64,000 nt of DNA from Spirochaetales bacterium. GTDB lineage: Bacteria; Spirochaetota; Spirochaetia; Sphaerochaetales; Sphaerochaetaceae. Location: the NCBI GenBank assembly GCA_028722305.1, contig JAQYHB010000056.1:1-64000 (forward strand). The letters are read 5' to 3'. This document shows, in pieces, positions 47,928 to 52,839 of the stretch (its first letter is position 1; each line of letters starts with the position of its first letter). The position numbers and the translations under genes are program-made. The notes under the pieces are model-generated. The model did no database searches. It was given only the letters and a program-made list of their open reading frames with translations, and was not told where the DNA came from.

Positions 47928-49289
<1,362 letters not shown>

Positions 49290-49310
49290 CCTTCCCGCCT
49301 AGGCGACAAG

Positions 49311-49359
49311 GGGGTGCGAGGAAAGCCGATAGCCGGCTTTTCCAAGCACCCTCTTTTTT
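49311..49359 (+). terminator. Rho-independent terminator of eno
   Basis: Nested hairpin: outer GGGTGC / GCACCC and inner AAAGCCG / CGGCTTT, followed by TCTTTTTT. It starts about 20 bases after the eno stop. Confidence 0.9.
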
Positions 49360-49395: not shown

Positions 49396-50073
49396 TTACA
49401 GGTCAAGCAGGGTCTTGTCCCCGTGGATGTTCCTCCAGCTTGCCTTGCAACCGTTGGTCACCTTGTCCACAACTGGCAGGTCAAGCGAGGCGGTCAGAAG
49501 GTCAGGGTTGACGGAGACCGCGTCCGCGCCCGACTCATAGGCGGTCACCACCTGGTCGATTGAATGGAATCCGACAGCCAGGATACGGGCATAGCATTCG
49601 TCGTCGTGATGGATGATCGAGGCGAGCCGCTGGAGCATGTCACTGGCGTTGATGCCGGCCTCCTCCATCCGCTGGTATTCGCATAGCAGGTAGTCCGCAC
49701 CTGCCATGGCGGCCAACAACCCCTGAATCGGGGTAAGAATACAGGCGGCGGTGACGTTGACCCCCTCATGGGAAAGTTCCTTGATCGCCTTCATCCCTTC
49801 CCTGGTGGCAGGAATCCGGATATAGGTATCACGTCCCAGCTTGTCACGGATCTTGTCGGTCTCGGCGATGATGCCGGAATAGGTGGTCGAGACTACCTGC
49901 ACATGGATGGAACGGGAGCCGATGATGCCACGGAGCTTCTGCAGATGGGAAAAGAAATCCACCGGCCCTTCCTTCTCCATGACAGAGGCGCAGGTGGTGA
50001 CTCCTGTGATTGGGAAGAGGTCGATGGCATTTTCCACCGATTCGATATGGGCGCTGTTCAACAGTAATTCCAT
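49396..50073 (-). CDS. Transaldolase/fructose-6-phosphate aldolase-family protein lacking the catalytic residues
   Basis: The 225-residue protein aligns along its length with the TalC/FSA group (MELLLNSAHIES, FPITGVTT, REGMKAIKELSHEGVNVTAA, QGLLAAMAGADYLLCEYQRM, ILAVGFHSIDQV). Yet every key position differs: FSA Asp6 is Asn6, the Asn of TTNPS (position 28) is Cys28, and the Schiff-base Lys of VKVP is Arg86 (IRIP). Without the Lys, aldol chemistry through an imine is impossible. It has its own SD and extended -10 (TGCTATACT) and is not degraded, so it is probably a functional non-aldolase. Confidence 0.8.
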   Translation of the reverse strand: MELLLNSAHIESVENAIDLFPITGVTTCASVMEKEGPVDFFSHLQKLRGIIGSRSIHVQVVSTTYSGIIAETDKIRDKLGRDTYIRIPATREGMKAIKELSHEGVNVTAACILTPIQGLLAAMAGADYLLCEYQRMEEAGINASDMLQRLASIIHHDDECYARILAVGFHSIDQVVTAYESGADAVSVNPDLLTASLDLPVVDKVTNGCKASWRNIHGDKTLLDL

Positions 50074-50133
50074 GGCAGGTTCCTCTATATTAGTACCGCA
50101 CAGTATAGCACAGAGAAACCTCCTGTGGACGTA

Positions 50134-51237
50134 TTATCGCTGGTCCGAGAAGACAGCCCTTACTTCGTCAAACAGCTCGGGAATGGCGAGATGCTGGGGG
50201 CAGGCTTTGGCGCATTTGTGGCAACGGATGCACTCGCTGGGCTTGTGGGCCTGCATGTCGTAACTCTGCTGGAAGCGGGCGTGCATGGCGGGGAAGAGCG
50301 CCTGCTGGTTGTACAGTTCGAAGAACTTGGGGATTTCGATACCGCGGGGACAGCCTGCGATGCAATACCGGCAGGCGGTACAGCCAATCTTCACTGTCTT
50401 CCTCAGGTATTCGCGCACTCGCGCTATGCGCTTCATCTCCTCCGTTTCCAGAGGCTCGAGATGGTTGAAGGTCCCGACATTCTCCTTGACCTGCCCGACC
50501 GAGTGCATGCCGCTGAGAATCATCTCCACACCCTTCAGTTGGGCAACAAAGCGCAGGCCCCACCTGGCATCCTCTCCCCCACCCAGCATCGCATGGGCCT
50601 CTGGAGGCAGGTTGGCCAACAGGCCGCCTTTCAACGGCTCCATCACCCACACCTTCCGGCCGTGGCGGCGGATTGTCTCGTAGCAAAGACGGGATTGCAC
50701 CTTCGGATCATCCCAGTCCAGGTAGTTCAGCTGGATCTGGACGAACTCCAGCTCGGGATGCTCGGAAAGGATTTTGTCCAACACGGCAGCCGAGTCATGA
50801 AAGCTCATGCCCAGATGGTGGATCAACCCTTTTTCTTTCAGGCCCTTGACGAATTCAAAGCCTCCGAGGCGGTTGGTATCCTCGTATCTCTGTCCATTCA
50901 TCGCATGCAGTAGGTAGTAGTCGAAAAAGCCTGCCTGGGTACGAGAGAGTTGCTCTTCCCAAATCCTCTGGTAGTCCTCGCTCTTCTGTACGAAACGGAG
51001 CGGCATTTTGTCCGCCAGCAAGAAGGAGGAGCGGTCGTGGTGTGCCACCAGCACCTTGCCTACGGCCGACTCGCTGGTCTGCTCGTGGTATGGATAGGCT
51101 GTGTCGAAATAACGATATCCCTGTTCGAGAAAATAATCGGCCATCTGCATGAACTGGTCCAAATCAATCTGGTTGTTCTTGCCATCGATGACCGGCAACC
51201 GCATGCAGCCGAATCCCAGTCGTTTCCACTCGCTCAT
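50134..51237 (-). CDS. Aldo/keto reductase with C-terminal 4Fe-4S ferredoxin domain
   Basis: The 367-residue protein has an N-terminal AKR barrel (LGFGCMRLPVIDG, RYFDTAYPYH with the catalytic Tyr, MSFHDS) and a C-terminal pair of Cys clusters (CTACRYCIAGCP and CIRCHKCAKACP), each able to hold a 4Fe-4S cluster. Such fusions are common in anaerobes and probably use ferredoxin-type electrons; the substrate is unknown. Its ATG overlaps the TGA of the gene upstream, so the two are co-translated. Confidence 0.9.
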   Translation of the reverse strand: MSEWKRLGFGCMRLPVIDGKNNQIDLDQFMQMADYFLEQGYRYFDTAYPYHEQTSESAVGKVLVAHHDRSSFLLADKMPLRFVQKSEDYQRIWEEQLSRTQAGFFDYYLLHAMNGQRYEDTNRLGGFEFVKGLKEKGLIHHLGMSFHDSAAVLDKILSEHPELEFVQIQLNYLDWDDPKVQSRLCYETIRRHGRKVWVMEPLKGGLLANLPPEAHAMLGGGEDARWGLRFVAQLKGVEMILSGMHSVGQVKENVGTFNHLEPLETEEMKRIARVREYLRKTVKIGCTACRYCIAGCPRGIEIPKFFELYNQQALFPAMHARFQQSYDMQAHKPSECIRCHKCAKACPQHLAIPELFDEVRAVFSDQR

Positions 51238-51923
51238 CTCACACTCCTTCGCACCAGCGCCATAATCTGGTGCATCACTTCATCTTCTCCTGCCTTGGCA
51301 ATCGTCGTCGCACAGGGTTCGACGACATCCCCGACATGGACCAAAAGACTCCCCAACACCCTTGCCATTTCCCTCATGTCCTCGCTGAAAGGGTGGTCAT
51401 CGTAACTGACCACCACATCCGCACCTCCGGTATCCAAGGCAAGCCGCTCCACAAGTCCGTCCGCCGGATACGCGGCGGAAAGGGAGATGCAGGCCTCCCA
51501 ATTGAAATGGTCGGAGGCCACCTTGGCCCCATTCCGGCAAAGGGCGGTAAAGGCGCCTGCCTCGTAGACAAGCCGCTCCAACCTTTCCGGGGCATCCACC
51601 AGGAGGACTATACGGTCCCGCAGCAAGTCCTCGGGCCGGCCAGAGGGAACAAGGTCGTACAGGGAACTGACACCGAAACCACAGCAGGCCTCATCATAGT
51701 CGGTTCCCAACCCGAATGGAACTCCTCCCAACAGAACCGAGGCCGGATACAGCTGGCGCGCTTTCCCGTATTGGTCAAGCTGCTCCTTCCAGTGGGGAAT
51801 CGAGGAAACCTCAAGCGGAAGGTCGTCAAAGGCGAACTCAGGCATCTCCACCGAACCGGCGTGGACGAACAGATGCTGGCAGATAGCCCTGACAAGAAGG
51901 GCGCTATAGGCATTAGGTCGCAT
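51234..51923 (-). CDS. Conserved-looking protein of unknown function
   Basis: I do not recognise this 229-residue protein. It starts MRPNAYSALLVRAICQHLFV and includes GGVPFGLGTDYDEACCGFGV, then a mixed alpha/beta region, with no signal peptide or membrane segment. Two adjacent Cys and several acidic residues could bind a metal. The start at 51923 is fixed by a -10 box ending six bases upstream. It overlaps the aldo/keto reductase gene, so it may modify, partner or supply that enzyme. Confidence 0.7.
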   Translation of the reverse strand: MRPNAYSALLVRAICQHLFVHAGSVEMPEFAFDDLPLEVSSIPHWKEQLDQYGKARQLYPASVLLGGVPFGLGTDYDEACCGFGVSSLYDLVPSGRPEDLLRDRIVLLVDAPERLERLVYEAGAFTALCRNGAKVASDHFNWEACISLSAAYPADGLVERLALDTGGADVVVSYDDHPFSEDMREMARVLGSLLVHVGDVVEPCATTIAKAGEDEVMHQIMALVRRSVR

Positions 51924-51929
51924 GCATCC

Positions 51930-51959
51930 AGCATACCACCAAAGCGTACCCCCTGTCTC
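51930..51959 (-). promoter_or_regulatory. Promoter of the unknown gene-AKR operon, predicted leaderless
   Basis: Minus strand GAGACA (51954-51959), 18 bases, TATGCT (51930-51935), six bases to the ATG. Confidence 0.5.
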
Positions 51960-51961
51960 GC

Positions 51962-51990
51962 TTGCACGCTTCTCCTCTTTGACCCATACT
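51962..51990 (+). promoter_or_regulatory. Promoter of the CPBP protease gene, predicted leaderless
   Basis: TTGCAC (51962-51967), 17 bases, CATACT (51985-51990), exactly six bases to ATG 51997. Its -35 lies two bases from that of the divergent promoter. Confidence 0.6.
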
Positions 51991-51996
51991 GGGTCC

Positions 51997-52839
51997 ATGG
52001 GAATACTCCATCTAAAGGCGGTTCTGGCAAGCTTCCTCACCTATTTGGTCTGGATCCTGCTTACCCCTTTCTGCCTTCACCTGTTCCGCATCCTCCCGCT
52101 TCCCGAGCCAATGGCGACCTATCTAGGCACAATCGGCAGCTCGATCGCCATGGCAACCGGGGTGTTGCTCAGCGCGCGGATCCTGATGCGCAAGCCGTTG
52201 CTTGCCTGCATCAGCGACCAGCCCCATTTTTCCCGTTTTCTGGTTCCCTTTCTCTGCGGTATCGGCTGTTTCACCCTGTTTACCCTGCTGCGTATCGCCC
52301 TCGCCCCAAACCACTTCACCTGGCAGGCGCCCCAGGCGAGAACCTATGTCGCCATGCTCCTTCTCGTGCTGGTGATGAACACAATCCAGTGCGCAAGCGA
52401 GGAATTCATGATGCGGATATTCCCCAGCCATGCCCTGCCGGACCGGCTGGGCAGCAGTCTGCTTTGCACCCTGCTGTTCCTTCTCCCCCACTTGGGAAAT
52501 GCCGAGCTGAAGGAAGGCAATGCCGTGCTTGTCCTTTTCTCCTACGTCATTTTTGGATTCTGGGGAACATGGGAAAGTCTTGCCGAAGGAGGATTCGGAT
52601 ACTCGCTTGGCATCCATATGGCCAACAACCTAGTCGTTTCCCTCCTCGTCGGATACAAGTCCACGGCCCTGCGAACCTACCCGCTCTTCATGACCTCGGA
52701 GCGAAGCGGCAACCTGGGTGAGCTTTTGACCCTCGTCGCTACCCTTTCCATCACCTCGTTGTTCAGCCGCCGCTTTTTGACCTATACTCGGAACCATCAT
52801 GGCAAACAATTACAAGCAAACGACAAAGCGCAGTGCTAG
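51997..52839 (+). CDS. CPBP (Abi/CAAX-type) intramembrane metalloprotease
   Basis: The 280-residue membrane protein has about eight hydrophobic segments and the CPBP motifs: SEEFMMRIF (EExxxR), FLLPHLGN (FxxxH-like with His) and HMANNLVV (HxxxN). Members cleave prenylated or other peptides in the membrane, or modify bacteriocins and toxins. The target here is unknown. The nuclease gene overlaps its 3' end by 41 bases. Confidence 0.85.
   Translation: MGILHLKAVLASFLTYLVWILLTPFCLHLFRILPLPEPMATYLGTIGSSIAMATGVLLSARILMRKPLLACISDQPHFSRFLVPFLCGIGCFTLFTLLRIALAPNHFTWQAPQARTYVAMLLLVLVMNTIQCASEEFMMRIFPSHALPDRLGSSLLCTLLFLLPHLGNAELKEGNAVLVLFSYVIFGFWGTWESLAEGGFGYSLGIHMANNLVVSLLVGYKSTALRTYPLFMTSERSGNLGELLTLVATLSITSLFSRRFLTYTRNHHGKQLQANDKAQC
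52759..52788 (+). promoter_or_regulatory. Internal promoter of the nuclease gene
   Basis: TTGTTC (52759-52764), 18 bases, TATACT (52783-52788), ten bases to ATG 52799. It lies within the end of the CPBP gene and would give a leader of about four bases. Confidence 0.5.

Follow-up and report, generated by a model that had tools for sequence, protein, structure and literature searches.

Genes and features at the locus

The window analysed here is a stretch of 64,000 nucleotides from a Spirochaetales bacterium of the family Sphaerochaetaceae, whose genome assembly consists of 56 contigs with a total length of 2.71 Mb and is 95% complete. The reverse strand of the window carries a gene for a protein of the fructose-6-phosphate aldolase (FSA/TalC) type in which six residues of the active-site pocket are replaced (Table 1). 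The gene converges with that of enolase, behind which a hairpin followed by a T-run, missing from the list of the consensus scan, is likely an intrinsic terminator. Upstream lies a gene for an aldo/keto reductase, whose start is overlapped by a further open reading frame with a dN/dS of 0.195 in comparison with G002, a second species of the genus. G001, a third genome of the genus, has its reductase homologue (49%) and its aldolase gene about 100 kb apart, so the pair of reductase and FSA-like gene is not conserved across the genus. Neither the enolase nor the reductase neighbour offers a tight functional link.

A sequence-only reading of this DNA had given the FSA-like gene its own promoter and Shine-Dalgarno (SD) sequence. 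An SD-like AGGA does precede the gene and is kept in G002, as is the extended -10 block of a promoter-like site in the gap upstream, whereas its -35 is not conserved. The region has three promoter-like matches where 1.1 would be expected (sd 1.0), a weak excess.

Table 1. Genes, codons and signals around the FSA-like gene; coordinates are those of the window
Feature	Position	Strand	Remarks
Enolase gene	47955..49289	+	Convergent with the FSA-like gene
Hairpin, then T-run, 3' of enolase	49308..49359	+	-31.5 kcal/mol, 60 bases folded
FSA/TalC-like gene	49396..50073	-	225 aa and stop; D6N, N28C, K85R (86), T109A (110), Y131E (132), S166G (168)
Arg86 codon (position of the Schiff-base Lys)	49816..49818	-	CGG; CGC in G002
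Cys28 codon (position of Asn28)	49990..49992	-	TGC; TGT in G002
Asn6 codon (position of Asp6)	50056..50058	-	AAC
Promoter-like site, extended -10 (TGCTATACT)	50102..50129	-	Consensus match only; in the 60-bp gap
Aldo/keto reductase, C-terminal 4Fe-4S domain	50134..51237	-	Upstream neighbour, 60 bp away (56 bp in G002)
268-aa open reading frame	51234..52040	-	4-base overlap with the reductase start; no Pfam/NCBIfam match at E <= 1e-3

Membership of the transaldolase family is clear, with 78.3 bits on PF00923 (TAL_FSA) against a curated cut-off of 27. Solved FSA/TalC chains align to residues 1-221, almost end to end (best E 2e-22); 27 distinct solved chain sequences match at E <= 1e-3, the last of them a designed barrel. 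An AlphaFold model, built on two sequences, had a mean pLDDT of 53 and was unusable. On the NF009299/PRK12656 equivalog model for fructose-6-phosphate aldolase, the protein (208.9) and its G002 counterpart (201.8) narrowly miss the cut-off of 214; that cut-off is no test of catalysis, since E. coli FsaA (TIGR00875, TalC/MipB) scores only 174, while three of three tested proteins that have lost the Schiff-base Lys, from a lineage described below as g16, score 230.5-253.7. The equivalog label thus covers proteins without the Schiff-base Lys, a warning for annotation, and pathway reconstructions may credit bacteria with an extra enzyme that is absent.

A rewritten pocket under selection

The comparison rests on 79 distinct aligned proteins, among them the window protein and E. 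coli fsaA (NC_000913, L111). The partial rows L051 and L107 were removed before tree building and column counts, leaving 75 other distinct full-length rows as the comparison set. As the sequence-only reading had it, Asn6, Cys28 and Arg86 stand opposite Asp6, Asn28 and Lys85 of FSA. The alignment adds three more changes in the pocket, Thr109 to Ala110, Tyr131 to Glu132 and Ser166 to Gly168, the last at a residue with a phosphate role in FSA. Gln59, Arg134 (135 in the window protein), the conserved glycine pattern and the length are retained, so that the protein shares full-length homology, near-equal length and these residues with NF009299 FSA and FsaA, and differs from them at all six replaced positions.

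All 75 rows of the comparison set have Asp6, Asn28 and Ser166. Position 86 holds Lys in 56 rows, Ala in 13, Arg in three, Ser in two and Glu in one; position 110 holds Thr in 64, Ser in five and Ala in six; position 132 holds Tyr in 57 and Phe in 18, with Glu only in the window form. The change at Thr109 is not peculiar to the window form, because six of the 75 other rows also have Ala, and Arg86 is common to it and three rows of another lineage (g11); the remaining four replacements occur in no other row. E. coli fsaA is only 26% identical to the window protein and retains every one of these residues, so distance alone does not explain the changes. Outside the alignment, a divergent FSA-like sequence at L114 2779-3111 (-) (G108:C33) has Ala at the Asp6 position on local alignment and keeps Lys85.

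We also asked how the changes are spread over the 30 columns with a conservation of 90% or more among the 56 Lys-bearing rows; these rows were picked for having Lys, which makes their Lys column invariant by construction. Eleven of the 30 are changed in the window form, five of seven in the active site against six of 23 elsewhere (p 0.043); p is 0.015 if Ala165 is counted as active-site and 0.086 without the Lys column. The changes fall preferentially, not overwhelmingly, on the pocket, a modest excess that depends on the definition of the columns.

In a study of FSA, Lys85 and Tyr131 form the catalytic pair, with Tyr131 as the dominant proton shuttle, and loss of Lys85 abolishes activity; Asp6 and Asn28 contact donor-derived intermediates, the catalytic water is held by Gln59 and Thr109 with Tyr131, and Arg134 is the docking centre for the phosphorylated acceptor (PMC13259622). 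The earlier description of Asp6, Asn28 and Lys as "all three catalytic residues" therefore holds for Lys85, whereas the first two are donor-intermediate contacts and the partner of Lys85 is Tyr131. None of the residues expected of an FSA/TalC enzyme, namely donor-binding Asp6 and Asn28, Schiff-base Lys85 and Tyr131 (or Phe), is present in the window protein.

A still-working FSA would need another residue in place of Lys85, and catalytic residues may have migrated in some proteins that look like pseudoenzymes, according to PMC10211241. The window protein has nine Lys (34, 46, 74, 78, 95, 98, 204, 210, 220), but none of them aligns to a barrel strand, the strands being assigned by reading the alignment with FSA. 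Lys78 and Lys98 are absent in G002, and Tyr131 is gone as well. We regard such an enzyme as very improbable; judged from the residues, Schiff-base aldolase chemistry has very probably been lost.

A scan of genome contigs with the window protein (61 stretches), the reach of which is close relatives only, gave one relative, RUG023, from an uncultured 'Spirochaetaceae', at 96% identity. RUG023 and G002 were treated as one genome because their proteins are identical. A rumen source is presumed. No relatives were found among 36 pattern stretches in a scan of viral contigs. The window form is thus known here from two genomes.

All six replacements are present in the orthologue of G002 (96% identity). 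The sequence-only reading had said that a Lys kept by orthologues in close relatives would point to recent loss or sequencing error; the closest relative does not keep it. Between the two genes dS is 0.488 and dN 0.018, giving a dN/dS of 0.036, the third lowest among eight genes compared in the stretch (0.018-0.195). The proteins differ at nine amino acids, none of them at the six replaced sites, and codons 28, 86 and 168 show only synonymous differences. Four of the replacements need at least two base changes each. The two assemblies are drafts in many contigs and the branch is long (1.05 changes per column), as could be expected of a decaying gene or of an assembly or sequencing artefact. 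Against this stand an intact frame in the assemblies of two species, the low dN/dS, and multi-base changes followed by synonymous drift at the new residues, from which sequencing error is not a reasonable explanation; error and recent decay are ruled out on these grounds for practical purposes, their probability being very small indeed. The suggestion of a pseudoenzyme or a new activity is upheld as far as sequence goes: the catalytic motif with Lys and Tyr131 is missing, the gene is kept by purifying selection, and the orthologue is alike.

G001 encodes an FSA-type protein at 42% identity that does keep the Lys. Grouping it with the window lineage gives p 0.317 in the approximately unbiased (AU) test, so the two are neither grouped nor separated. 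Whether or not the G001 gene is the orthologue, the loss of Lys predates the split between the window species and G002, in which the replacements are common to both.

Lys-less copies across the family

Of 139 genomes of the family, 66 gave a match to PF00923. The P0001 search matched 56 of the 139, and position 86 was readable in 55; the remaining genome, G017, has a marginal match (9.4e-4) that was not recovered by tblastn of its stretch. A second place in G070 is fragmentary and ends short of position 86, and weak or partial extra places in G108 and G030 keep the Lys on local alignment. An FSA-type copy without the Lys is present in 23 of the 55 genomes: two of g1 (the window form, Arg), 17 of g16 (14 Ala and three Ser, one Ser copy being partial), three of g11 (Arg) and one of g13 (Glu). 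A Lys-bearing copy is also present in 17 of these 23, namely 16 of the 17 genomes of the Ala/Ser lineage and G082. The Lys position was read in Spirochaetota and in E. coli fsaA. Across the phylum, 23 of 392 genomes gave a match, 14 of them inside the family, and the nine outside it (E <= 1e-20) all have Lys. No Lys-less FSA or transaldolase pseudoenzyme was recognised among the matches listed in the open PMC literature.

The g16 paralogue (L096, L097, L098, L099, L076-L087; 17 genomes) has Ala or Ser for Lys and Phe for Tyr; the genus g16 is presumably Sphaerochaeta. A divergently oriented AraC/cupin regulator (identified with Pfam at one locus) lies beside the Lys-less copy at all 16 full-length loci, its aligned part starting 23-72 bp from the start of the aldolase-like gene. 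No such neighbour was found at 12 loci that come from other lineages or from a genome lacking a Lys-less copy, nor at 20 loci of Lys-bearing copies in g16 genomes (mostly 1.5 kb searched on each side). Genes for an FGGY kinase, a split transketolase and a fucose-isomerase-like protein adjoin several of the Lys-less copies, among the matches listed. Because these copies retain Asp6, Asn28, Gln59, Arg134 and Ser166, the proteins may still be able to bind sugar phosphates. All 15 distinct Lys-less g16 rows have Lys or Arg at position 189, where six of the 56 Lys-bearing rows have Lys.

The three g11 copies (L102, L103, L088) have Arg for Lys and keep Asp6, Asn28, Tyr131 and Ser166. A phosphomannose-isomerase-type gene (Pfam) adjoins them in three of three genomes; the same gene adjoins four of six Lys-bearing sister copies, and was not found beside the G038 and G052 copies within the 3 and 1.5 kb searched. 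In G082 a second FSA copy (L100 5004-5681 (-)) on a long branch has Glu for both Lys and Arg134, and the same genome holds a Lys-bearing copy.

Constraint on the Lys-less copies is strong. Their dN/dS is 0.017-0.085 in g16 (seven pairs) versus 0.040-0.118 for six Lys-bearing pairs, and 0.068 and 0.037 in g11 (two pairs, a third being saturated). The copies that lost the Lys elsewhere in the family, with at least two losses independent of that in the window form, are under similar constraint. The g16 paralogue resembles the window form in its lost Schiff-base Lys, its subfamily and its strong constraint; it differs in the kept sugar-pocket residues, in Ala/Ser for Lys and Phe for Tyr, in the AraC-type neighbour and in its separate origin.

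In a tree of 77 rows the Lys-less g16 copies form one group (100/99) within the Lys-bearing g16 rows. Those of g11, three in number (100/100), have six Lys-bearing rows as their sister group (100/99 together), and G082 contributes a single copy that pairs with a Lys-bearing row (89/95). The window pair (100/100) sits on an unresolved fork. Long branches, flagged by the program, leave some doubt about the placements. AU tests on a 39-row subset, in which the bootstrap had not settled, rejected one clade of window form and g11 lineage (p 1.6e-4), one clade of window form and g16 lineage (p 0.0054; p 0.040 with 77 rows), and a single old loss for all Lys-less copies (p 1.7e-5). The Lys-less copies lie in four lineages, and the separate losses number at least three, probably four. 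This repeated and selected loss of Lys in a class I aldolase family offers a tractable natural experiment on the change of a barrel enzyme into a different kind of protein.

Possible functions of the window protein

A pocket that has been rewritten and yet is near-constant in two species very probably serves a purpose outside the chemistry known for the family. At about even confidence we favour, over a new enzyme, a lone non-covalent ligand binder that serves as a receptor or regulator. The FSA-type (beta/alpha)8 barrel would no longer carry out Schiff-base aldol chemistry, and the rebuilt pocket would hold another small ligand non-covalently. With Arg135 kept and the positive charge retained by Arg86, this ligand would probably carry a phosphate or be an acid. 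The protein, perhaps a homo-oligomer, would then work as a receptor or regulator. No active aldolase that could be its partner was found in the genome, so it would act alone.

The possibility of such a partner deserves comment. PDX1 is a Lys-dependent TIM barrel, and PDX1.2 is without that Lys. In plant vitamin B6 synthesis, PDX1.2 is described in PMC6829848 as a non-catalytic homologue that does not conserve key residues of the active site. The window protein would likewise be a non-catalytic homologue of active enzymes with key residues lost. It might assemble with an active aldolase and serve it structurally or as a regulator, in the way that PDX1.2 joins PDX1.3. The decameric state of FSA (PMC13259622, figure legend) fits such co-assembly, and the Lys-bearing paralogues that accompany the Lys-less copies suit it in the Ala/Ser lineage and in G082. 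PDX1.2, however, regulates active paralogues, and the PF00923 search found no TAL_FSA match besides this gene in the window genome or in G002 (95% and 96% complete), which makes a scaffold for an active paralogue improbable here.

The lone ligand binder has a stronger competitor in a new enzyme, in which Cys28, Glu132, Arg86, Arg135, Asn6 and Gln59 would catalyse a Schiff-base-free reaction, for example isomerisation, or a lyase or hydrolysis reaction of a sugar phosphate or acid. The pocket has been rewritten with polar, ionisable residues and not eroded, these residues are conserved, and the gained polar or reactive ones (Cys28, Cys111, Glu132 and Arg86) suit an enzyme at least as well as a ligand binder; the upstream neighbour, an aldo/keto reductase, is moreover a redox enzyme. 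On the other side, there is no candidate substrate or pathway context, and the pairing with the reductase occurs only in the window genome and G002. We know of no enzyme of the FSA fold that works without the Lys. A new enzyme is a real possibility that we nevertheless doubt.

A broader and rather unlikely reading, again drawn from sequence comparison, takes in the family as a whole. The FSA barrel, which without its Lys would make a good sugar-phosphate receptor, may have been turned to non-aldolase use on at least three, probably four separate occasions, and Lys-less FSA may constitute a new class of metabolite sensor, with some members labelled aldolases by the NCBI cut-off. The series would lead from g11, with Lys to Arg but Asp6, Asn28 and Tyr131 kept, through g16, with Lys to Ala or Ser, Tyr to Phe, an otherwise preserved sugar pocket and the AraC-type neighbour, to the fully rebuilt pocket of the window form. 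The sensor suggested by the sequence-only reading fits g16 better than the window gene, because in g16 the sugar-binding pocket is preserved and there is a link to a regulator.

The sulfofructose transaldolase SF-TAL/SftT belongs to the same family and matches the window protein weakly (8bc3, 2.7e-10). It works through a Schiff base, for which the window protein has no Lys. Rumen Sphaerochaetaceae are linked to the use of sulfoquinovose, but via a sulfo-transketolase route, according to PMC13219744. Split transketolases are suggested by two matches to Transketolase_N, one in a frame of 286 aa and one in a frame of 289 aa.
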